Positions 22,245-33,567 of a stretch of 64,000 nucleotides of DNA are shown here, one piece after another. Each line of letters opens with the position of its first letter. Position 1 is the stretch's first letter. The position numbers were made by a program, and so were the translations under genes. Source of the stretch: Chloroflexota bacterium (GTDB lineage Bacteria; Chloroflexota; Dehalococcoidia; Bin125); assembly GCA_028875225.1 (NCBI GenBank), contig JAPPFB010000029.1:1-64000 (forward strand), given 5' to 3'. Under the pieces are notes generated by a model, which searched no databases, had not been told where the DNA came from, and was given only the letters and a program-made list of their open reading frames with translations.

Positions 22245-25200
22245 CTACTCGCTTCGGTCCTTGCGGCGTTCCTCATACAGCCCCAGCGCGTGCAACGGAA
22301 AGTATTGGCGATAGAGCACGTAGTCCAGGAGCGCCGTGCGAAAGAACACGCCGGCCATGTCCTGCCTGGGCCATGTCCCATCAGGGTTCTGCGTGTCGAT
22401 CAGATAGCGGATGCCGCGCGAGATCGCCGTCCAGTCCGAGTCGCCGGCCTCGAGCAATGCAATCAATGCCCACGCCGTCTGGATGACCTGACTCTCGTCG
22501 TGGGCGACGTACTGGCCAGTCATGCAGCCGCTGTGGTGTTCTCCCCATCCACCGTCATCGCGCTGGCGATCCAGCAGCCAGCGACAGGCCAAATGCAGCG
22601 CCGGGTCGCCCGGCCGGGCTCCGCCGGCGACCAGGCCTCGGATCCCGAAAAACGTGCCGTATATGTACTGAACTCCCCAGACGCCGCGCCAGGAACCGTC
22701 ACTCGCCTGATTTCGTCGCAGCCAGGCGTCGGCCCGAGTCATCGCCCGTCTCGTTGGCGCATCGATGCTCTCCGGGGAGTGTTCCTGAGCAGCGGCGAGC
22801 GCTGCGAGACATGAGGCGGTGCATTCAACGAAGGAATGCTCCGTCATCGACTCGCCGAACATCTCGGCCGGGTTGATCCGTTCGAGGTCGATCGCGGAAC
22901 GTTGCGATTCGTAGCTGCCGAACCCGCCGTCGCGATTCTGACCACGCAGCATGAAGCGGGCCGCGTCGCGCAGCGCCGCCGGACCGATCGCCGACCGATC
23001 GGCGGCGACAATCCCGAGCACGGCTTCCGCCGTGCAATCCGTCACCGGCCAGCCATGCCACCGTTCGGCGAAGCACCAACCGCCCTGTGGGTCGTTTCGG
23101 TAGGCCTCTCGGAATCCGGGGAAGCTGGCGTCGATCTGCTGCTCGCTTAGGTAGGCGGCTCCGCGCTGGAGCGCGTCGGATGCGCCGGAGACCTCGGGCG
23201 TCAGCGACAGCGCCTGGAGGGCGAATCCCGTGTCCCATGAAGCGCTTCTGGCGCCGGTCATGCGGGCGCCGCCGTCGTCATCTTCCCAGAACCAGCGGTC
23301 GAGCTGCTCGAGCGCGCGCTGGAAGTCGGCGTCGCCAGGATCGTGGAGCCAGAGGGCCATGACGTTGAGCAGACCGCTGACCGGAGAGATGCTCGTGTGG
23401 TCGGTCGAGTTCAGCTCCCACTTGATCTGACTGATCAGTGCCTCCATCGACCGCGCGCGCCAATGTCTGCTGTGGAACCGTTCGACGAGTTGCGCGCCTC
23501 GATACAGCAGGCGCAGCCAGGTCGTCGGCTGTGCGAACAGGTCCGCCTCTCGCAGGTGACTGCGATGGGCAGAAAAATCGATGCTCTCGAAGCCCTCGGG
23601 GTACAGCTCCTCGCGCAGAGAAGCGATCACTGGCGTGACGGGCGCCTGGAAACGGCGGGAGTATGTCGCGGCCATCGCCATGTAGATCAGCCGGGTGTGG
23701 CAATACCAGTTCGAGGGGTGCAGCGGCAAACTGAGAGGCAGGCTCCAGAGTTCGGGGAGCACGGGATGAATGCCTCGCCAGTCGTAGAGGTTGAGGAGCG
23801 CCAACCAGAACTTTCCCCAGCTTGGGATGCCCAGCACGCCCTCGGCCTGCAAGAATCGGCGCGCCGGCTCGATCAGCGGATCTTCCCGCTCGACGCCTAG
23901 CAACCGTGCCGCCACATAGACCAGTGTCGTGACGAACAGGTACGGCTGCGAGTGATCGTGTAGCCCCCAGGTGCCATCAGGGAAGCGGGACTGCTCGAAG
24001 TAGCGCAGTAGCCGCCGCCGCCGATCTGGGCCGATCGGATGCCCGATGATGTGGTGCAGCAAGACCCACTGCGCGGTGATCATTGGACACCAGACCATCT
24101 CGCCTTCCCAACGACCCTCGTCATCCTGCAGTTCCAGCAGTCGTGCGGCGGCCCGTTGCAAGGCCGAACTCGCATCGGGCGAGACAGTCCTTCCCTGTCG
24201 CGGTTCTTCGGTTCGAGGCGAGAGTGATGACCCGGATGGCATTGAGGTCAAGAAGGCGCGGGCGAGGGCTTCCGTGGGGCGTTCGTTCTCCGTTCCGCCC
24301 GCACGTCTGACGTTGTAGAGGTGCCAGGCGGCTCGCAGGAGCCAGGCAAGTCGGTTGCTCAATCCACGAGCGATGTCGCGGTAACGGCGCCAGGCCAGCC
24401 GGTTGAGCGACTTGGGGACGGTTGCCCGATGGGCCCAGAGCACCGTCGTAATGAACTCCCGGCTCAAGCTGCGGATCGAAGTGTCATCACAGCCCAGCAA
24501 CCTCATGGTGCGGCCGCGCACTCCAGAGCTGGCCCGCCAGCGGCTGTACATCGCCTGGCGGAGCGCGGCGCCTTCGGCCCGCGGATCGGCGAAGACCTCA
24601 TAGAGTCCCATCGCCAGGAGCTCGGGAACTCGCGTGGCCTCAAAGCGGTGGTTTCTGAAGTCACTGAACTTCTCGCCCTCGGCTAACGCGAAGGCGTCAC
24701 CGAAGCCGAGCGTGATTCCGGTCGCGGTCAACGGATGGTAGTGTCCCGCGGCATCTCCGATCAGCACTCGACGTGAGGTTCCGTAGGTCAGTCGCGGACT
24801 AATCACATTGGCTGCCGCCTGCATCCCTTGCTCGGACCAGGCGTCGACGAACGCTGAGCGAAGCGACTCCGGCACCCAGCGGGCGTACGAGTCCGAGAGC
24901 AGACCCTTCCACTCATGCGGAGAGTGGTCCAGCGGGATATCGATGACCGCGCGGACTCGGTCCTCGCTCAATCCATACAGCAGCATCGGACCAGGGGCGC
25001 CGCTGACCACGTGCCCGTAACCCTCGAAGGGCAAGCTCACCCCGTTCAGCGTCAGTCCAACCATTCGTGAACAGGTCCTCGTGCGGGTTGGTATTCCCAG
25101 CGATCGCCGGACGATGGAAGAACGTCCATCCGCGCCCACGATTCGTTCAGCGAGCACAGTGCGGCTCTTGCCGTTCTGGGTAAACGTGATTCGTCCGTCT

Positions 25201-25601
25201 TCGACGGTGCGCACGCGGGCGTGAAGCAGCAGGTCGACGCCCGGATCGTCGCCGGCTACCTGGCGCAGGTGCGAGACCAGCGCCTCATGTTCGCAGACCA
25301 GACTGCGCATTCCGTCGGAGTACGGGAGCAAGATTGGCTCGTCACCGTCTTCCGGTAGCACGGCGAATCCTTCGCCCGAGTTGCTCGGTACAGCTCCCTC
25401 GACGGAAATGCCCAGCTCATCCAAGACCTGCACGGCCGGGGGATGCAGCCACTCGCCGGCCAGTCGTTTGGACGCAGAGGGGTTTGCTTCAAACAGGGCG
25501 ACTCGATATCCCTTGCGCGCATGGGCGATGGCGCACACACAGCCGACCGGACCGGCGCCGACAATGGCCACGTCGTAGCGTCCATCGGCCGCGCCGTTCA
25601 C
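22245..25601 (-). CDS. Squalene monooxygenase - oxidosqualene cyclase fusion
   Basis: One uninterrupted frame (about 1118 residues from a GTG at 25601 that overlaps the CYP51 stop as GTGA; an ATG at 25670 gives 1141, numbering used here). Residues 31-~460 are a group A FAD monooxygenase of squalene-epoxidase type: Rossmann VGAGPVG (37-43), GEWLHPPAVQVLDELG, ADG (180-182) and GDAAGHYHPLTATGIT (305-320), matching the GD...HPLT..G.T signature. Residues ~500-1141 are an oxidosqualene cyclase: HPSNWYCH (651-658), the protonating DCTAE (878-882) rather than the DxDD of squalene-hopene cyclases, and repeated QW motifs (QDDEGRW, QASDGSWRGVWG, QRDDGGWGE, QNPDGTW). A Pro/Ser/Arg-rich linker joins them. 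It would epoxidise squalene and fold it into a sterol skeleton. It is last in the sterol operon. Families are certain; product is inferred. Confidence 0.9.
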   Translation of the reverse strand: MNGAADGRYDVAIVGAGPVGCVCAIAHARKGYRVALFEANPSASKRLAGEWLHPPAVQVLDELGISVEGAVPSNSGEGFAVLPEDGDEPILLPYSDGMRSLVCEHEALVSHLRQVAGDDPGVDLLLHARVRTVEDGRITFTQNGKSRTVLAERIVGADGRSSIVRRSLGIPTRTRTCSRMVGLTLNGVSLPFEGYGHVVSGAPGPMLLYGLSEDRVRAVIDIPLDHSPHEWKGLLSDSYARWVPESLRSAFVDAWSEQGMQAAANVISPRLTYGTSRRVLIGDAAGHYHPLTATGITLGFGDAFALAEGEKFSDFRNHRFEATRVPELLAMGLYEVFADPRAEGAALRQAMYSRWRASSGVRGRTMRLLGCDDTSIRSLSREFITTVLWAHRATVPKSLNRLAWRRYRDIARGLSNRLAWLLRAAWHLYNVRRAGGTENERPTEALARAFLTSMPSGSSLSPRTEEPRQGRTVSPDASSALQRAAARLLELQDDEGRWEGEMVWCPMITAQWVLLHHIIGHPIGPDRRRRLLRYFEQSRFPDGTWGLHDHSQPYLFVTTLVYVAARLLGVEREDPLIEPARRFLQAEGVLGIPSWGKFWLALLNLYDWRGIHPVLPELWSLPLSLPLHPSNWYCHTRLIYMAMAATYSRRFQAPVTPVIASLREELYPEGFESIDFSAHRSHLREADLFAQPTTWLRLLYRGAQLVERFHSRHWRARSMEALISQIKWELNSTDHTSISPVSGLLNVMALWLHDPGDADFQRALEQLDRWFWEDDDGGARMTGARSASWDTGFALQALSLTPEVSGASDALQRGAAYLSEQQIDASFPGFREAYRNDPQGGWCFAERWHGWPVTDCTAEAVLGIVAADRSAIGPAALRDAARFMLRGQNRDGGFGSYESQRSAIDLERINPAEMFGESMTEHSFVECTASCLAALAAAQEHSPESIDAPTRRAMTRADAWLRRNQASDGSWRGVWGVQYIYGTFFGIRGLVAGGARPGDPALHLACRWLLDRQRDDGGWGEHHSGCMTGQYVAHDESQVIQTAWALIALLEAGDSDWTAISRGIRYLIDTQNPDGTWPRQDMAGVFFRTALLDYVLYRQYFPLHALGLYEERRKDRSE

Positions 25602-26986
25602 CGGAAGACTCTGCCCTGCGTTCTGCGTCGATAGCGGAGCCGGCAAGGAGTCTCGGGACCGGTCACCCAACTGCCGTAGTTGGGCTCAGGGAATTCTGTC
25701 TCCAGGCTGAAGTCGAATCGATCGAGTAACACTGTCCAGATTGCCTTCACCTGCATTTCAGCGAAGTGCTTACCCATGCAACGATGCTTGCCGCCGCCAA
25801 AGCCGATCAATGTGTAGGGGTGCTGTTTGTCCTCGCGAGCCGGCGGGCTAAAGCGGTCCGGGTCGAAGCGATCGGGGTCGGCGAACAGATGGGGCAAGCG
25901 GTGGGAGACGGCAGGCGAAACCATGGCCAGGCTTCCGGCGGGCACGACATGATCCCCGTAACGCATTGGTTGGAGCACCTTGCGAATCAGGATGATCAAC
26001 GGAGGATGAAGCCGCTCACACTCCCGGACGGCATGTTCCATGGTGATCTGTCGCTTCAAGCCCTCCAGATCCATGCTTCCGTTCTCGCCATAGACAACCT
26101 GTGTCTCGTCACGGACTCGCTCTGCGTAGGAGGAAGCCCGCAAGAGTTCCAGGCCGGTCCAGGTTGCGAGCACCGCGCTGGTGTGTTGGCCCGCAAACAG
26201 CACGGTGAGGAGAATTCCGGTGATCTCGTCGTCATCCAGCGGTCGGTGATCGCTGTACCTGGCATCCATGAGCGACTGCATGAAGTCGTCGGGATTGGCC
26301 CCTGCGCGCCGTCGCGCCGTCATGATCCGGCTGAAGAGTTCTGCCACCTGCACGCGCGCCCGATCGCGGCTGCGATGCGCCGGAGTCGGAAGCCTGGGCA
26401 GGAAAAACCCCAGGGTGTTGATGCCTTTCTGCAGATCGTGGTACGCGTCAGCAAACCCGGTATCCACCTGGTCCCGGACTTCCTGACCGATCAGGCTGCG
26501 GCTGGCGATCTTGACGGTGAGCTCGTTCATCGCGGCCGGTAGATTGAACACGCCTTCATCGCCCAGGGAGTCGGCAAGCAGCGAGGTTTCTTCGAACATG
26601 ATCCGAGCGAACTTCTGCATTGCGGCTTCCCTGAGGGCCGGATAGAGAAAGCCAAGTTGCTCGTCCATCACCTGCGGGGCGACGTCGTAGGCCACGCCTC
26701 GACCGAAAATGGGCACCGTGAACTGGTAGACGTCCTTGGCGTTGAGTTGGTCCTCGGGCGCACTGAAGAACGCATCGTGCGCATCGGGCCCGGTGAACAG
26801 TACAAATCGGCGCGGACCCAATCGAAAACGGTAGAGATCACCCAGCTCGCGCCAGCCGCGGCTCAGCATGGCTACGGGGTCACGCTGAAATTCCAACAGA
26901 TGTCCCAGCAGCGGCGCTCCTCCGTCGAGGTCCGGGATATCCCGCGTCTCGCGCGCAGCCGGTGGATCGCTAGCCAGTCGAACCAT
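25598..26986 (-). CDS. cyp51: CYP51 sterol 14-alpha-demethylase
   Basis: 462 residues, soluble bacterial length without N-terminal anchor. The B'-helix signature YQFTVPIFGRGVAYD (87-101) is diagnostic for CYP51; the I helix has AGQHTSAVLATWTG (265-278), the ExxR motif is ECER (322-325), and the haem loop is FGGGKHRCMGKHFAE with Cys 403. It removes the 14-alpha methyl group of lanosterol-type sterols in three oxidations. No redox partner gene is in the cluster. It overlaps the fusion gene by four bases and follows the reductase by 31, so it is cotranscribed with both. Confidence 0.93.
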   Translation of the reverse strand: MVRLASDPPAARETRDIPDLDGGAPLLGHLLEFQRDPVAMLSRGWRELGDLYRFRLGPRRFVLFTGPDAHDAFFSAPEDQLNAKDVYQFTVPIFGRGVAYDVAPQVMDEQLGFLYPALREAAMQKFARIMFEETSLLADSLGDEGVFNLPAAMNELTVKIASRSLIGQEVRDQVDTGFADAYHDLQKGINTLGFFLPRLPTPAHRSRDRARVQVAELFSRIMTARRRAGANPDDFMQSLMDARYSDHRPLDDDEITGILLTVLFAGQHTSAVLATWTGLELLRASSYAERVRDETQVVYGENGSMDLEGLKRQITMEHAVRECERLHPPLIILIRKVLQPMRYGDHVVPAGSLAMVSPAVSHRLPHLFADPDRFDPDRFSPPAREDKQHPYTLIGFGGGKHRCMGKHFAEMQVKAIWTVLLDRFDFSLETEFPEPNYGSWVTGPETPCRLRYRRRTQGRVFR

Positions 26987-27017: not shown

Positions 27018-28115
27018 CTAGTAGACCCGCGGGATCAATGCATAGGGTACCCGCTGGGTGTAGCGCTCCCAGAGGTCGCCGTACTTGGTCCGGCAGCGAC
27101 GGTCATCGCGCCTGGCGCGATGCCAGAGCAATGCCGTCAACCAGACCGGCAAGATGAACGGGATCCATGACGAGAACGCTGTCGTGAGCGCAAACGCAAA
27201 GTACACGCAGATTTCGCCCGAGTAGTTCAAGTGCCGACCGACGCCCCAGAATCCCGAAACCAGCAGACGCCCGTCAAGAGACTCGGCGGGCCGCCCCCAG
27301 ATTGACGCATCTGCTCTCTGCTTGAACCGGTGCTTTTGTTCGTTTGCTCCGCGAAACATACAAAAGCCAACCACGAACAGCAAACAGATCGCCGCTGCTG
27401 CCGCAGCAGGCAGCGAGTTTGATCCATCCAACAACCACCAGCCAGCCAAACAGTAGAAGAACGGCACCAGCACATAGTCGCCCCAGGCCAGCATCCAGCC
27501 AAACCGTTCGGCAACGATGTCCCAGGTGTAGATCATTCCGTACTCAAACTGGAAGTAGTTCAGCACGTACACGAACGTGAACACCTGATAGAGCATCATC
27601 CCTAACGACAGTTCACCGCGGGTGTCGTATTGGACCACGGCAAACGATACATTGAACAGCGCCAGGGCGATCAATGAGGGTCGATAGCTGAACAGCTTCA
27701 GGTCGACTCCGAACCAGCTGGGATTGAGCTGGCGGCCAAAAAACACTCCACGCCAGAGCCCGGTTGATTCGCTTCCGAGGCGGGACGCCTGCCAGTACAG
27801 ACCGGCCGAGAGCGCAAAGGCAAACACGTTGGCCACGATGAACAGCTCGGCAAAATGGGAGTGAATCACGGAGAGCGAGAACAGGCCGAAGACGTCAGCG
27901 AGCACTGCGAACAGCAGAACGATCAGGAAGAGCGCGAGCCCGTTGAGATTGTAGGTACGGGCGACACCATCCTCATCGGGTCTGCCCACCGCCCGCCGTC
28001 CCGGCAGCCAGCGTGAACCCAGCATCAACAGGCTGACGAAGACCAGGAAGATTGCCGCGGCTTCCCACAGATGCTGGCCGGACACCGTCGTCCAGGCTGA
28101 CGGGATCTCAGGCAT
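27018..28115 (-). CDS. Sterol reductase of the ERG4/ERG24 (C14-reductase) family
   Basis: 365 residues, eight to ten membrane helices. Family blocks are clear: FFGRQLNPSWFGVDLKLFSYRPSL (compare GRELNPR in eukaryotic enzymes), FEYGMIYTWDIVAERFGWML followed by GDYVLVPFFY, and the C-terminal LLVSGFWGVGRHLNYSGE with RRDDRRCRTKYGDLWERY, the NADPH-binding end. Next to CYP51, reduction of the delta-14 bond left by 14-demethylation is the likely job; delta-7 or delta-24(28) reduction by relatives cannot be excluded. Its ATG lies inside the end of sdmA (8-bp overlap), so translation is coupled. Confidence 0.9.
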   Translation of the reverse strand: MPEIPSAWTTVSGQHLWEAAAIFLVFVSLLMLGSRWLPGRRAVGRPDEDGVARTYNLNGLALFLIVLLFAVLADVFGLFSLSVIHSHFAELFIVANVFAFALSAGLYWQASRLGSESTGLWRGVFFGRQLNPSWFGVDLKLFSYRPSLIALALFNVSFAVVQYDTRGELSLGMMLYQVFTFVYVLNYFQFEYGMIYTWDIVAERFGWMLAWGDYVLVPFFYCLAGWWLLDGSNSLPAAAAAAICLLFVVGFCMFRGANEQKHRFKQRADASIWGRPAESLDGRLLVSGFWGVGRHLNYSGEICVYFAFALTTAFSSWIPFILPVWLTALLWHRARRDDRRCRTKYGDLWERYTQRVPYALIPRVY

Positions 28116-29217
28116 CGCTCTGGCGCGCGGCGTCCTCGCGGTCCAGGTATTCTCGCCACTTGCGGACGGTCACCTGCTGAAAGGAACGGACCACCGGATT
28201 GACTTCGATCGGAGCGGCGTCCCAGTTTCGCTCGTAGCCCGTCTGTTCCGCCTCCACCGCCCAGCGATCCTGGGAGAGCAAGGGGCCGATCAACATGCGG
28301 TTCGCGAGCCGCAGGACGGTCGTCATGGCCCAGCGAGGGATGCGCACTGGCAGCAGGGGGATCTTGAGCGACCTGAAATAGAAGAGGAAGAACGTCCGCG
28401 TCGTGCGCTCGTCAATCGGCAGCACGAAGAGCCAATGCTTGATCTCGTCATCGGTGTTCGACCGCTGATAGGGATACTCGTAGCAGAGTTCCATGTGATT
28501 GGTGTTGAGACGACCGTGGTCGACGAATTTTCCGGAGATGCGTCCGCGGCCGACTCGCGTCTCGTAGGCAAGATGCACGTTGTCGCCGACGGTTTCGTGA
28601 CGGGTGAGCGTGGCGCCATCGAACGGACGGTACTGACGGTGCAGATAGGCGTGTGAGAAATCGCTCACGTTGTCGATGATGATTGAGTGGTGCGCCTCGA
28701 GGTCGAATCTGAGTGGGACGCATGCCCAGCGTCCGGGGCCTTCGAGCTCGGGGATCTCCGGGATCCGTCGCTGCTCGGCTAACTCCGGATCGCCCGGAAA
28801 GATCCAGACGAGGCCGTATCTCACCTGCACCGGATAACTGCGCACCGAGAGTCGCGGGACCTGCTTGCGTCCGAACAGATCGGGAATCTCGACGACGTGG
28901 CCGTCTTCGTCGTATTCCCAGCCGTGATACCCGCAGACCAGATGGCAACCCTCGACTTCGCCCAGAGAGAGCTTGATCTGGCGGTGCAGGCAGCGATTCT
29001 CCATCGCGTGAAACGAGCCGTCTTCCGACCGAAATAGCGCGATTGATTGCTTCCAGAACACGACCTCGGTCACCGTGCCCGGCTTGACCTTGCGGACCTC
29101 CTCGACGGCGTACCAGTAGTCAGGGTTCATTCCGGCGGCGCGCGCCTGTTGGCGGAGGTTGTCGGCATTCGCCAGACTGGGCGGGCGGGCGGTTGGCGAC
29201 TCGATTTCGACGCTCAT
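28108..29217 (-). CDS. sdmA: Rieske oxygenase, SdmA-like sterol C4-demethylase component
   Basis: 369 residues from the ATG at 29217 (GAGGATC upstream). Rieske cluster ligands C76-x-H78 (NRCLHRQ) and C95-x2-H98 (CGYHGW); the mononuclear iron site is NVSDFSHAYLH with D186, H189 and H193. SdmA of Methylococcus capsulatus, a Rieske oxygenase, oxidises the 4-methyl group of sterols, and this gene stands beside an SdmB-like dehydrogenase in a sterol operon, so the same role is inferred. By domain alone it could also be a ketosteroid hydroxylase or cholesterol-7-desaturase-like enzyme. No ferredoxin reductase gene is nearby. Confidence 0.75.
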   Translation of the reverse strand: MSVEIESPTARPPSLANADNLRQQARAAGMNPDYWYAVEEVRKVKPGTVTEVVFWKQSIALFRSEDGSFHAMENRCLHRQIKLSLGEVEGCHLVCGYHGWEYDEDGHVVEIPDLFGRKQVPRLSVRSYPVQVRYGLVWIFPGDPELAEQRRIPEIPELEGPGRWACVPLRFDLEAHHSIIIDNVSDFSHAYLHRQYRPFDGATLTRHETVGDNVHLAYETRVGRGRISGKFVDHGRLNTNHMELCYEYPYQRSNTDDEIKHWLFVLPIDERTTRTFFLFYFRSLKIPLLPVRIPRWAMTTVLRLANRMLIGPLLSQDRWAVEAEQTGYERNWDAAPIEVNPVVRSFQQVTVRKWREYLDREDAARQSDA

Positions 29218-29263
29218 GTCCGTTGATCCTCGGGAGTTGCGCGGGTGTCTCCGATTGGCATGA

Positions 29264-30358
29264 CTAGCCGCCTGCCGCGACTGCTGTTTCGGGTCGCCTG
29301 GCGTTCGGATTGGTAATCGCGTTGCGTTCATAGTGAAACGCGTAGGCGTCCTCGACCGCGGAGCGGATCGTTGTTGGCTGAAAGCCCAACTCCTCTTTCG
29401 CCTTGCTGGTATCGGCGTGACGGCACTGCTGCAATAGCCGGATCGCTCCGGGCGTGAATCGCTGGGGATAGCTCGGCCAAAAGCGGCTGAGCGTGTAGCT
29501 CGCGACTTCCGAGAACGGCAGCATCAGTCCCAGCGGGATCTGCCGGCGCGGTCGCTTGACCCCCGACACCGCCTGGAAGTGGTCCAGCATGTCGGAGATG
29601 GTCTGGTAGGCGGAACTGAAGATGTACTTCTGCCCCGAGCGCCCGCGCTCCATGCAGAGCAGATGGCCCTGCACGATGTCTGCCGCCGCGACAAATTCGA
29701 ACCCGCCGTCGACGTAGGCGTGGAGCTTGCGATTGGCGAAGTCGCAGAGCGTCCGTCCCATTCTCGAGGGGAAGAAGTCATTGCCCCCGACGACCGCGCA
29801 GGACGTGGCGATGACCACCTCCTGACCGCCAGCCGCCGCATGCCAACACTCGGTCTCGACCATCGCCTTGCTGCGTTCATAGGGCATCGTCCGTTCCATC
29901 GGATAGAACGGCATTGACTCCTGGGTGGGAGCAGATGTGTCGTCCAGGTCATAGCCGACTGCGCTGAACGATCCCGTCACCACCACTTTCCCGGCATCCG
30001 CCTCTCGAGCTGCCTGGAGCACATTGCGTGTGCCGAGAACATTCGTCTCATAGACATCCCGTCGATGGGCGTCGTTGCCGTCGATGGTCGAAACCATTGC
30101 CGCGACGTGAAAGACGCCGTGACAACCCGTCAGCGCCTGTCGGGTGGCGTCGAGGTCTCGAATATCGCCGTAGACGCGTTCGACGTCGAGCCCCTCCACT
30201 GCCTCGTTGTTGTCCTCGGTTCTCAACATCACCCTGACCGGAGTGCCGTCATCGAGCAGTGTGCGAACCAGATTTGCCCCGACGTGCCCGGCGGCACCGG
30301 TGAGGAACACGGGCGGCCGCGATGTGCCGGAGAGACTTTCGGATAACGGTGAGGCCAT
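29264..30358 (-). CDS. sdmB: 3-beta-hydroxysteroid dehydrogenase/decarboxylase, SdmB-like
   Basis: 364 residues, extended SDR fold. NAD(P) motif TGAAGHVG (20-27), catalytic YERSK (Tyr160, Lys164) with an upstream Ser in VVTGSFSAVG. The 3-beta-HSD/sterol-4-carboxylate dehydrogenase subfamily is indicated by YETNVLGTRNVLQAAREA. With the Rieske oxygenase it would oxidise and decarboxylate the C4-carboxyl intermediate, as SdmB does in Methylococcus capsulatus. It is first in the operon; GGGAG stands seven bases before the ATG at 30358, so the promoter must lie under or inside the N-terminal part of the divergent gene. Confidence 0.82.
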   Translation of the reverse strand: MASPLSESLSGTSRPPVFLTGAAGHVGANLVRTLLDDGTPVRVMLRTEDNNEAVEGLDVERVYGDIRDLDATRQALTGCHGVFHVAAMVSTIDGNDAHRRDVYETNVLGTRNVLQAAREADAGKVVVTGSFSAVGYDLDDTSAPTQESMPFYPMERTMPYERSKAMVETECWHAAAGGQEVVIATSCAVVGGNDFFPSRMGRTLCDFANRKLHAYVDGGFEFVAAADIVQGHLLCMERGRSGQKYIFSSAYQTISDMLDHFQAVSGVKRPRRQIPLGLMLPFSEVASYTLSRFWPSYPQRFTPGAIRLLQQCRHADTSKAKEELGFQPTTIRSAVEDAYAFHYERNAITNPNARRPETAVAAGG

Positions 30359-30378
30359 ATAGCTCCCACATTACGCAA

Positions 30379-31263
30379 ATGGCGGCGAATCAGGAGAATG
30401 AGGCAACCGTAATCGGTGGCCGTCGGAGTTGCAATATCACGCCACGCTCTGCATTCCCGGAGCGGTGGGATCGCTATGATGCACATCTGATCCGACCGGG
30501 CCTGTTGGTGCAACACGTATCGCGAGGGAAGTCACCAGGTTTGAGCAGCGCGGGCGAGCGTACAGACGGGTGGGGCGTGCCGGCGGGTCTGCTCGCGGTC
30601 CTTGCGATCGTGCTTCTGGCCGTTCCCGGCGTGGTCTCCCGATATGCGCTGCATGAGAATCTGAACGCGTTCCATTTCCTGTTCTGTCTGTTTTTCTCGA
30701 CCAATCTGGTGATCTCCTACTGGGAGATGTGCCTGTTTTTCCGCAGGGACGAGATCGAATCGCGTCTCGAGCATTGGCGCCGGCGCCAGGATGACTCAGG
30801 TCGGACTCCGGCCGTCGAGTTCCTGACCACCAGAGTGCCACTGAAGCGGATGCTCTCTCCGACCGTCTGGGCGGACGTCTGGGCGACATACTCAATGTTC
30901 GATTCGGCGTATGCCGATCGCAACACGTACGGGTTCAACATCGACATCGCCAACGGATTCACCACACCCGTAACGACGGTGTTTCTCTACGCGGCCTACA
31001 CGGCTGGGGAGGTTCCGGCAATTGCGACCGGCATCATTGGCGCCATGCTGTTCTGGCAGTGGACCTACGCGTCAACCCTGTACCTGGTCAGCTTTTTCGT
31101 CGGAGGGAAGCAACGCCGCGTGACGACGCGTGAGTTCTACGTCTACATCTTCGGCCCCAACGCCATCTGGATCCTGATCCCGATCGTCGGCCTCTACGTC
31201 TCCATCCGCCTGATCCTCGACGGCGACTACAGCGTGTTGGGGATCGAGCCCCTGTTGCCCTGA
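30379..31263 (+). CDS. Five-helix membrane protein, distantly EXPERA/EBP-like
   Basis: Up to 294 residues with five hydrophobic segments. The block WADVWATYSMFDSAYADRN, the third helix, and the last helix FGPNAIWILIPIVGLY resemble the order of motifs in emopamil-binding protein (delta8-delta7 sterol isomerase), including the N-A-x-W pair. In an ungapped comparison, though, the catalytic His and Glu of EBP helix 2 are Asn and Ser, and the later Glu is Asp, so isomerase activity is doubtful. It is divergent from sdmB. The ATG at 30379 has no ribosome site; a TTG at 30541 preceded by AGGGAAG leaves room for a shared promoter and may be the true start. Confidence 0.45.
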   Translation: MAANQENEATVIGGRRSCNITPRSAFPERWDRYDAHLIRPGLLVQHVSRGKSPGLSSAGERTDGWGVPAGLLAVLAIVLLAVPGVVSRYALHENLNAFHFLFCLFFSTNLVISYWEMCLFFRRDEIESRLEHWRRRQDDSGRTPAVEFLTTRVPLKRMLSPTVWADVWATYSMFDSAYADRNTYGFNIDIANGFTTPVTTVFLYAAYTAGEVPAIATGIIGAMLFWQWTYASTLYLVSFFVGGKQRRVTTREFYVYIFGPNAIWILIPIVGLYVSIRLILDGDYSVLGIEPLLP

Positions 31264-31335: not shown

Positions 31336-33567
31336 CTACTCGAAGGGCATCGGATCCAGGAACCGATCCAGCACGTTGCGCGTCATGCGCGAGACGTTGT
31401 TGTCGTGATCGTTGTGGAACAGCGCGGAGCTCCAGCCGATGGAGCCGGTCGAGAACACCGCGCCGCCGCGCGGCGTCTCGAAGAAGACCACGTCGGCATG
31501 CACCTGGGGGTCGTCCTGACCGCCGATCGAGAGCAGCATGTGACCGATGTCCTCGTTGACGCGGATGTAGCAGTCGGTGTGCTGCTCGGAAGTCGCGACG
31601 GTCAGCGCATGCGGCGGCGTGCCGTAGGCGCGGCTGGCGGAGTCCAGTTCAAGCCCGGCGGCGCCGCCGCCAATCAGTCCGAAGTCGCCGATGATCTCGT
31701 CGTCGATGCCCTCGAAGATGAATGCGGCGCGCGGGTCGTGGCTGTCGTCGGTACGTCGGAAGTAAGAGGAGTGGTCGAATCCCTGGGCGATGAATCCGTT
31801 GCCGACCAGTGACTGCGGCGTGCGTCCGGCGCGCCACCAGAGACCGCCGTATTCGCCGGTGAAGGCCATGTAGTACTCGCCCGGCTCGCTGGCCCAGGAG
31901 CGGGAGCCGTCCTCGGTCCGCCGCATTTCCATCGCCCCGGGCTTGTCGTCGCGGTAGGCGACGCGCCAGTAGAAGCCGTTGCCGCCCATGTACATCAACC
32001 GGCCGCCGCGCTGCGTGAAGGCGTGCACGGCGTCCCACATGTTCGTGGAGTAGTACTCAGGGTGGCTGCAGGTCATGACGCATGAATAGCGCTCGAGGAG
32101 AGAGACGCCGTCCTGGTGCATGTCCTCGTCGGTGATCACGTCGAAGGGGATGCCCTGCGCCTCGAGCCACTCGACCAGGTGCATGTCGGCACTGAGCTGC
32201 CAGAGCCAGGGATGAGTGGGGCGGATGTTGATCAGCGGACGCAGACGCGAGGAGTAGCAAACGCCGGTGCCGTCGTTGTGGTTGTCGTACATCGAGTTGC
32301 CGTACTCGGGATGGCGGTTGAGGTAGCGCTCCTCGGGAGAGACGACATGCAGGCGGTTGGACAGCAACTCGTTGCCGGCCTCAATGCCGCCTCGGGAGTT
32401 GCCGTAGGCCATGTAGCTGGCCGTGGGGATCAGTAGCGCCAGCGACGCGGTCGCACGATCACGCGGTGGACGCACGATGAAGGTGATGTGGTCTTCCTGG
32501 TCGGCCGCCGTCAGCCGGGCGGCGTAGAGCCCGCTCGGCGTATCGGCGGGGACTTCGAGCTCGAAGTCAACGTCCCACTCGCAGTCGTAGAGCGAGTCGT
32601 CGAGGAAATGGATCGCGGCATATTGGTCGGGCGCGTGGTTGAAGTCCAGCTCGTCGCCGGTCCAGTTGGAGCCGCGCACGGCGCGGATCGGGAGGTTGAC
32701 CAGCGTCCCGTGAGCGCGATTGGGGGAGATGTCGATGATCTCGTCGGTCTCGAATGCCTGGCCGAAGTCCCAGGCGGCGCAGATATCGGTCCGCAGGTCG
32801 ACGGGAACCGGTCCCGAGCGCAGAGCCTCGATCTCACTTCCCTCCAGGACCCTGGAAGCGACGACCGGACGCTCGATGCGACCGTTGAAGATCATCTCGC
32901 CGACAGGCTTTCCGCGGGCCTCCTCGCGGCTGGCCGCGGCGATCAGCAGCGGCGCATTGCAGCCGACGACGGCGGTCGCCTCGCTGGAGTGCCGGGCTAC
33001 GCCGCTCGATGTGTCGAGGGCGTACGAGTCGAGCAGCTGTTGGCGCAGATGCACGTCGCCGCTGGCGGAGTCGTAGGTGGCACTGACCAGGTACCACTCG
33101 CGGGCGACAAACGGTTGGCCAAGCGCGTACTCCTGAAGTCCGCCCCGACCGTCGCCGAGCTGCAGGACGAGGCCGTCGGAAGGATCGGTCCAGAGGGCGA
33201 ATCCGCGACCGGCTTCGACGTCCATCTTGGAGATCAAGCAGGCTCGGCGAAGGGCGGGGAGCGTGGGGAAGATGGCGGCCTGGAGGGAGAGATCGGCGAG
33301 CGCGCTGAAGGCGGGGCCGTCGGGCGCCACGGCATAGGAGCCGCAGTAGGTCTCCTGTGTGCGGCCCGGATACTCGCCGCTCACTGAAGTGGGCAGGAGT
33401 TCATCGCGGTAGCCGGGACCGTCGGGCTGGCGGTCGCCGGAGATCAGGCGGACGATGTCGGCCTGATAGCGGTCGACGCCCGGCTCGCAGCTGACCATGA
33501 AGCGGATACGTTCGCCGGGGGCGACGCTGATCTCGTCGCTGTAGCCCGCGATCTTCTTCTCGAGCAT
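31336..33567 (-). CDS. N,N-dimethylformamidase large (beta) subunit-like amidohydrolase
   Basis: 743 residues, close to the known enzyme's large subunit. A LamG/concanavalin-like segment occupies about 80-260 (EWYLVSATYDSASGDVHL), a beta-rich linker about 330-370, and the C-terminal domain carries TCSHPEYYS with His502 and Glu504, matching the HxE iron ligands described in dimethylformamidase. The family hydrolyses formamides; the real substrate here may be another small amide. The gene follows a small-subunit gene by 22 bases, as in the known enzyme. No signal peptide, so it is cytoplasmic. Confidence 0.78.
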   Translation of the reverse strand: MLEKKIAGYSDEISVAPGERIRFMVSCEPGVDRYQADIVRLISGDRQPDGPGYRDELLPTSVSGEYPGRTQETYCGSYAVAPDGPAFSALADLSLQAAIFPTLPALRRACLISKMDVEAGRGFALWTDPSDGLVLQLGDGRGGLQEYALGQPFVAREWYLVSATYDSASGDVHLRQQLLDSYALDTSSGVARHSSEATAVVGCNAPLLIAAASREEARGKPVGEMIFNGRIERPVVASRVLEGSEIEALRSGPVPVDLRTDICAAWDFGQAFETDEIIDISPNRAHGTLVNLPIRAVRGSNWTGDELDFNHAPDQYAAIHFLDDSLYDCEWDVDFELEVPADTPSGLYAARLTAADQEDHITFIVRPPRDRATASLALLIPTASYMAYGNSRGGIEAGNELLSNRLHVVSPEERYLNRHPEYGNSMYDNHNDGTGVCYSSRLRPLINIRPTHPWLWQLSADMHLVEWLEAQGIPFDVITDEDMHQDGVSLLERYSCVMTCSHPEYYSTNMWDAVHAFTQRGGRLMYMGGNGFYWRVAYRDDKPGAMEMRRTEDGSRSWASEPGEYYMAFTGEYGGLWWRAGRTPQSLVGNGFIAQGFDHSSYFRRTDDSHDPRAAFIFEGIDDEIIGDFGLIGGGAAGLELDSASRAYGTPPHALTVATSEQHTDCYIRVNEDIGHMLLSIGGQDDPQVHADVVFFETPRGGAVFSTGSIGWSSALFHNDHDNNVSRMTRNVLDRFLDPMPFE

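Follow-up and report, generated by a model that had tools for sequence, protein, structure and literature searches.

A His-less EXPERA-like membrane protein beside bacterial sterol gene clusters, a candidate sterol-nucleus isomerase

The window analyzed here, a stretch of 64,000 nucleotides from a Chloroflexota bacterium, carries next to its sterol gene cluster a gene (X; 30541..31263, plus strand) for an EXPERA-like membrane protein of 240 amino acids and five helices, detected by a weak PF05241 match, its predicted fold, and a profile-profile test. The protein most likely represents a new bacterial EXPERA subfamily with a sterol pocket like that of the emopamil-binding protein (EBP) and would act as a sterol-nucleus isomerase, with Delta8 to Delta7 isomerization as the first choice; we put the probability of this reading at about one half, and infer the isomerase activity from genomic context and residues. 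The similarity of X to EXPERA proteins exceeds that of all controls; the pocket aromatics W114, Y117, Y124, and W210, the residue N207, and the acids D121, D135, and E62 are conserved; and the gene is linked to sterol genes in several arrangements across phyla. The subfamily is apparently centered on sponge symbionts, whose sterol pathway may find in X its missing double-bond-shifting step.

The sequence-only reading had equated the gene with positions 30359-31263, part of a 313-codon open frame, but its start was wrong: in-frame stops occur 5' of position 30541 in many relatives, and the TTG start codon at 30541 (GTG in locus L017) is kept in nine loci, which together place the start at 30541. 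The 313-residue frame was ruled out as the gene on the same grounds. GAGGGA stands 11 bases before the start codon. X and the neighboring SdmB-like gene are divergently transcribed from a 182-bp intergenic region, which contains a TCGCTATGATGCAC-like block conserved in nine related loci; this block could hold the -10 element of X, with TATGAT (30475..30480, plus strand) as a possible candidate, and a scan of the region upstream of X for consensus promoters gave no match. X had been placed at the head of the sterol operon; it does adjoin the head of the cluster, but since it is divergently transcribed, on the other strand, it stands beside the cluster and not inside the operon. On its other side, X has a convergent neighbor (31336-33567) that encodes a DMFA2_C (N,N-dimethylformamidase beta-like) protein; only three close relatives have this gene in the vicinity of the cluster, and it is probably unrelated to sterols.

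The cluster itself runs on the minus strand and comprises, in order away from X, genes for an SdmB-like SDR of C4 demethylation, the first gene of the divergent cluster (29264..30358; NF052578 at E 6e-88, below cut-off), an SdmA-like Rieske oxygenase of uncertain start (28108..29331; NF052579 at E 6e-123, below cut-off), a C14 sterol reductase of the ERG24 type (27018..28115; PF01222 above cut-off), a cytochrome P450 (25598..26986; PF00067 above cut-off), and a fused squalene epoxidase/oxidosqualene cyclase (22245..25670; PF08491, PF13243, and PF13249 above cut-off, TIGR03463 at E 4e-224, below its cut-off). The final 68 bases of the SdmB-like gene are shared with the SdmA-like open reading frame (28108-29331), which probably starts at a codon further inside. 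The best solved relative of the C14 reductase is a Delta14-sterol reductase (4quv, E 1e-67). The P450 is presumed to be CYP51 from its place in the cluster; the available portions of the report on published sponge-symbiont clusters show CYP51 in the same position (PMC9531527). Elsewhere in the window's genome, a second ERG4/ERG24-family reductase (L099:8718-9812, contig C17) has 41% identity to a reductase that adjoins X in Bryobacterales and may catalyze Delta7, Delta24(28), or another reduction; two sterol methyltransferase genes (L101:7781-9856 and L103:7927-10094) each adjoin a KshA-like Rieske oxygenase gene, and there are four Sterol_MT_C matches in total.

Sterol clusters of sponge symbionts are already known (Mohanty et al., 2020, PMC7074536; Kelly et al., 2022, PMC9531527; Brown et al., 2023, PMC10070321); as far as the available parts of these papers go, the clusters of Ircinia symbionts (CSG; PMC9531527) and the msb locus of a Melophlus symbiont (PMC7074536) contain the same SDR, Rieske oxygenase, C14 reductase, CYP51, and epoxidase/cyclase as the window, often with a sterol methyltransferase (SMT). 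In the accessible portions of the three accounts no isomerase is described for these clusters, and the word "isomerase" is absent from the available text of Brown et al. (2023); since the cluster reports, to that extent, name no C-8 isomerase, the pathway on paper ends at a Delta8 sterol. For the msb locus, the available text notes genes at both ends that are unlike sterol genes (Mohanty et al., 2020).

By sequence, the relationship of X to EXPERA proteins is distant. Among curated families X had no match above cut-off in Pfam and no match at all in NCBIfam; the trimmed protein had PF05241 (EXPERA/EBP) as its sole match, at E 0.021 and 15.6 bits against a cut-off of 25.7, and this match is colinear, with residues 113-220 of X on profile positions 5-112 of 113. 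Across an alignment of 49 X sequences (A1), PF05241 was the best weak match in 26 of 49 relatives and any other family in two at most (24,736 models), and the lowest PF05241 E-value was 0.0051. Because EBP had been named beforehand, the chance of this one pairing can be set near 1e-6 (E divided by 24,736 models). In a PF05241 scan of the window's genome X was the only match; scores of its size were also seen on unrelated frames in other genomes. In profile-profile comparison, by which the EXPERA superfamily was defined, X scored 31-33 over 118 columns with a two-sequence template (human EBP, verified against PDB 6oht, and an EBP-like protein of Planktothrix), whereas the controls reached 20.8 (best of 66 families), 20.2 (reversed profile), and 22.9 (best of 60 local column shuffles). 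Against a TMEM97-like profile, X scored 24.6 over 17 columns, compared to 31.1 over 118 columns for EBP; identification of X as a TMEM97-type EXPERA protein was ruled out by this score and by motif spacing. A PDB sequence search with the X profile gave no EBP match, and PF04622 (the ERG2/sigma-1 receptor isomerase family) had no match in X. In the HMM comparison with EXPERA and EBP suggested in the sequence-only reading, PF05241 is the weak top family, its match below cut-off, and the profile-profile score beats its controls.

The AlphaFold2 model of X built with alignment A1 (pLDDT 85, pTM 0.82) has the five long helices that had been anticipated, at residues 15-38, 43-67, 130-155, 160-187, and 196-227, the last one broken at 205-207. 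When this model was compared to 350,542 PDB chains in Foldseek, human EBP came first (8w0r; probability 1.00, TM 0.52/0.57, rmsd 8.7) and a second EBP structure sixth (6oht; probability 0.80), and all other listed matches had probabilities of at most 0.12; a viral structure library gave no match. A poorer replicate model, with a Latescibacterota member as its seed (pTM 0.70, the last two helices of low confidence), had no EBP among its Foldseek matches, with the consequence that the fold evidence amounts to one model. The structural comparison with EBP therefore came out in favor of the proposed kinship in the better model, but not in the weaker one. The kinship as a whole survives the condition that was to have counted against it, namely the absence of any EXPERA match together with an unrelated fold: a weak PF05241 match exists and the better model is nearest to human EBP, although the second model is not. 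That X is a five-helix protein unrelated to EBP, similar by chance or by convergent use of W, Y, N, and W residues, would agree with the lack of any family above threshold, the PDB sequence search without EBP, and the replicate model that missed it; yet independent tests of sequence and fold concur, and the invariant residues of X coincide with functional residues of EBP, so this explanation appears very improbable.

These coincidences become evident when X is set against the 11 major determinants of EBP known from alanine scanning (PMC4263179), nine of which were placed alike by three MAFFT modes. Six are identical in all three modes (EBP = X: W101 = W114, Y104 = Y117, D108 = D121, Y111 = Y124, N193 = N207, W196 = W210); W114, Y117, D121, N207, and W210 are invariant in the 49 X sequences, and position 124 is Y in 43 and F in six. 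The codons of W114-x2-Y117-x3-D121-x2-Y124 occupy 30880..30912 and those of N207-x2-W210 31159..31170 (both plus strand), the latter alignment also recovered by hhalign. The two motifs singled out from the sequence, D-S-x-Y (D121-S-A-Y124) after a helix with W and Y (W114, Y117) and N-A-x-W in the last helix (N207-W210), are thus genuinely present and conserved. An acidic residue at EBP position 108 is the most conserved feature of the EXPERA superfamily (PMC4263179), and it is found in X as the invariant D121; the superfamily is further marked by a core of four helices and by an acid at EBP position 80, for which E62 is the candidate in X. Three determinants are altered: E122 and T125 of EBP are replaced by D135 and N138, invariant in all 49 (codons 30943..30954, plus strand; three modes), and R110 is lost (Ala/Ser). 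EBP Glu122 itself is therefore not found in X; the change to Asp135 is conservative, and its spacing is that of E122, 14 residues after the EXPERA Asp.

The catalytic His76 of EBP has no counterpart in X; Ile or Asn occupies the possible positions, and no invariant His occurs anywhere in the 49 sequences. The second transmembrane helix (TM2) carries N55, C59, and E62 on one helix face (N55 to E62, codons 30703..30726, plus strand; the conserved counterpart of the EBP H76/E80 stretch, in uncertain register), and E62 is invariant, in the helix that holds E80 in EBP. An alignment of TM2 only places W61-E62 on the W-E of the Planktothrix protein (the E80 equivalent by its H-x3-E) in all three modes, and N55 opposite human H76 in one. 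Global hhalign and whole-length MAFFT alignments left TM2 unaligned, even for the Planktothrix protein; the equation of E62 with E80 consequently depends on the TM2-only alignment, by which E62 is probably at the E80 position. In either register, the sequences indicate that His76 is gone and an invariant Glu is kept in the helix. The earlier statement that the catalytic His and Glu are unmatched thus holds for His76, but E122 is represented by an invariant Asp at the same spacing, and E62 lies in the E80 helix.

The combined motif W-x2-Y-x3-D-x13-[DE]-x2-[TNS]-x55-85-N-x2-W occurs in human EBP, in the Planktothrix protein, and in 49/49 X sequences, and with the same fixed spacing it was absent from all 16 TMEM97-like proteins, from every non-relative among the 767 open reading frames of X loci, and from all 400,000 shuffles; these counts describe specificity and are not a P-value, since the motif was defined after the alignment had been seen. 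EBP, the 3beta-hydroxysteroid Delta8,Delta7-isomerase (PF05241; 6oht, 8w0r), also resembles X in its five helices and similar length (230 amino acids compared to 240), and shares with it the W-x2-Y-x3-D-x2-Y motif, the acid 14 residues after the EXPERA Asp, the N-x2-W of the last helix, and the sterol pathway context. In contrast to EBP, X lacks His76, has Asp for Glu122 and Asn for Thr125, has lost Arg110, falls below the Pfam cut-off, and is longer by approximately 31 residues in the segment from TM2 to the horizontal helix. The Planktothrix agardhii "emopamil-binding family protein" (plasmid p2, L089:5797-6519), also of 240 amino acids, has the motif spacing of X and a TM2 W-E; unlike X, it keeps the H-x3-E, Glu, and Thr of EBP, and its neighbors are three Rieske proteins and a carbamoyltransferase, without a sterol cyclase cluster.

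In the mechanism proposed for EBP, His76 protonates C9, Trp196 stabilizes the C8 cation, and Glu80 (with Glu122) takes off the C7 proton (PMC6549186). X keeps the aromatic gate, the cation-stabilizing N/W pair, and one acid each in TM2 and TM3, but not the His, and is most simply read as an isomerase whose proton relay has been rewired. With the CYP51 step, C14 reduction, and C4 demethylation completed, X would meet a Delta8 sterol as its substrate; one of the two acids in TM2 and TM3 (E62 or D135) would protonate the ring olefin, W210 and N207 would stabilize the C8 cation as W196 and N193 do in EBP, and the partner acid would remove the neighboring proton, with the role of His76 falling to N55, N138, or Q173 plus water, or to a shorter relay. 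Since a Delta8 substrate is expected and the searches turned up no further protein of the EXPERA or ERG2 type, Delta8 to Delta7 is the first choice, with 8(14) as the main alternative. Several points count against this best explanation, namely the absence of His76, the PF05241 score below cut-off, a fold match from one model, the uncertain TM2 register, a cyclase in only 17 of 49 genomes, and Gemmatimonadota loci that mostly have no sterol neighbor. The earlier choice between a diverged isomerase, a transporter, and something novel is narrowed by context and residues, which favor a protein that acts on the sterol nucleus and, in the simplest case, is an isomerase.

The alternative regiochemistry, in which an EXPERA isomerase would convert Delta8 or Delta7 to Delta8(14), or Delta7 to Delta8 on host sterols, is unlikely, although the altered proton relay (His lost, Glu replaced by Asp) would be compatible with it. 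Sterols unsaturated at 8(14) have been reported from sponges, dinoflagellates, and methanotrophs; one study (PMC13277303) lists those of sponges and suggests C-8 isomerase orthologs as their possible source in eukaryotes, which lends this regiochemistry some plausibility, as do the second ERG4/ERG24-family reductase and the KshA-type Rieske oxygenase that lie near X in Bryobacterales. Yet the simplest step to follow C14 reduction is Delta8 to Delta7, and in methanotrophs the 8(14) task falls to 8,14-Bsr, an unrelated NTF2 protein. Like X, 8,14-Bsr was once a hypothetical protein beside bacterial sterol genes, and it shifts a ring double bond (PMC13277303); in contrast to X, an EXPERA membrane protein in a cluster with a normal C14 reductase, it has a soluble NTF2 fold and both reduces and isomerizes.

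The neighborhoods of X differ among genomes. X adjoins SdmB in Chloroflexota loci, is found past the cyclase, flanked by a sterol methyltransferase gene, in two loci (L052, L059), adjoins the cyclase in Nitrospirales (L064), and adjoins SMT in Latescibacterota (L049, L056, L058). In Bryobacterales/Terriglobia (L050, L051, L054, L062) it shares its surroundings with a DUF1295 protein, a KshA-type Rieske oxygenase, and a second ERG4/ERG24-family reductase, joined in the majority of these loci by a sulfotransferase and SDRs; by its gene content this neighborhood looks like a sterol-remodeling or sulfation cluster. A DUF1214 protein also belongs to this neighborhood, which lies at about 6-16 kb of each of the four loci and is partly present in L061, and in four of these remodeling-type genomes the cyclase search gave only a match at the level of hopene cyclases. 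One genome (G385) has two copies of X, one near each kind of neighborhood (L052, L061). In L023, X is directly beside a second ERG4/ERG24 reductase; the sterol cluster at this locus (L023:6232-12436) ends inside CYP51, with C14 reductase, SdmA, SdmB, and X kept, and no sterol cyclase was found in this genome. Most Gemmatimonadota loci have no recognized sterol neighbor of X.

Within the window's family, X is present in 12/12 genomes with a cyclase and 3/8 without (hypergeometric P ~0.004). Across X-bearing genomes, Sterol_MT_C methyltransferases (46/50) and ERG4/ERG24 reductases (36/50) are frequent and oxidosqualene cyclases (17/49, drafts) are not, so that X goes with sterol modification in a wider sense, beyond synthesis de novo; where a symbiont has no cyclase, X would act on sterols from the host or from other symbionts, alongside methyltransferases and the second ERG4/ERG24-family reductase. 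Canonical EBP was found in 0/49 X-bearing genomes and ERG2 (PF04622) in 0/50, a search in which the controls gave no match either.

The essential role of His76 in EBP, and the majority of X genomes without a cyclase, make non-catalytic sterol binding the main rival: X would retain the EXPERA fold without being an enzyme, and would serve in sterol binding, trafficking, or regulation, delivering or presenting sterols to the enzymes of the cluster. Its separate, divergent transcription is in accord with such a role, and the EXPERA families TMEM97 and TM6SF2 provide a precedent, as we know of no demonstrated isomerase activity in either. However, the acids known from the EBP active site and its cation-stabilizing N/W pair do not vary in X, and the motif spacing of X is that of EBP and not of TMEM97-like proteins; we consider a non-catalytic X rather doubtful, and the isomerase remains the preferred reading.

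When 84,980 species genomes were scanned for close relatives, 52 loci were obtained from at least eight phyla, as labeled in the records (Chloroflexota, Gemmatimonadota, Pseudomonadota, Acidobacteriota, Latescibacterota, Rhodothermota, Binatota, and Nitrospirota); several loci titled Gammaproteobacteria appear to be Gemmatimonadota, since a class search centered on one of them gave Gemmatimonadales genomes. The X tree needs four phylum changes for Gemmatimonadota, three for Acidobacteriota, and two for Pseudomonadota, which fits horizontal transfer, although mislabeled or mixed bins would give a similar result. Most carriers are presumably sponge symbionts, because bin prefixes (RHO, COS, IRC, and perhaps APA) agree with the hosts Rhopaloeides, Coscinoderma, Ircinia, and Aplysina of a demosponge MAG study (PMC8163846); the records do not state this origin. 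In 400 Chloroflexota genomes searched for bridging families, X was found only in its own family and in one genome of another; short matches within frames of 565-609 residues in this set look spurious and were rejected. Chloroflexota families without X contain 16 clear TMEM97-like EXPERA proteins (L070-L085); these TMEM97/MAC30-like proteins resemble X in their EXPERA affiliation and an N-x2-W-like last helix, but they come from genomes of other families, none of the 16 has the EBP-type motif, and X does not have their spacing. No canonical EBP was found in 394 genomes of the class of genome G372, the search for bacterial EBPs gave only one EBP-like protein, the plasmid-borne one of Planktothrix, and human EBP had no match in viral contigs.

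Bacterial C-8 isomerase homologs have been mentioned for Calothrix (PMC10202945) and Methylotuvimicrobium (PMC13277303). X should not be filed as EBP, because the catalytic residue that was looked for is absent; the most fitting description is a new EXPERA subfamily without the catalytic His, as far as the openly readable literature shows, and an earlier annotation of X may exist. It provides a directly testable candidate gene for the missing C-8 isomerase step and, if this assignment is true, a second line of EXPERA sterol proteins in bacteria, its active site altered. More tentatively, and with less confidence than the isomerase reading itself, a His-independent isomerase may have spread horizontally among symbionts of many phyla, whether they make sterols or only remodel them, and may set the Delta7 or Delta8(14) double bond of unusual sponge sterols. 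The finding bears on the question of who makes and edits demosponge sterols, which matters for the use of sterane fossils as animal biomarkers.
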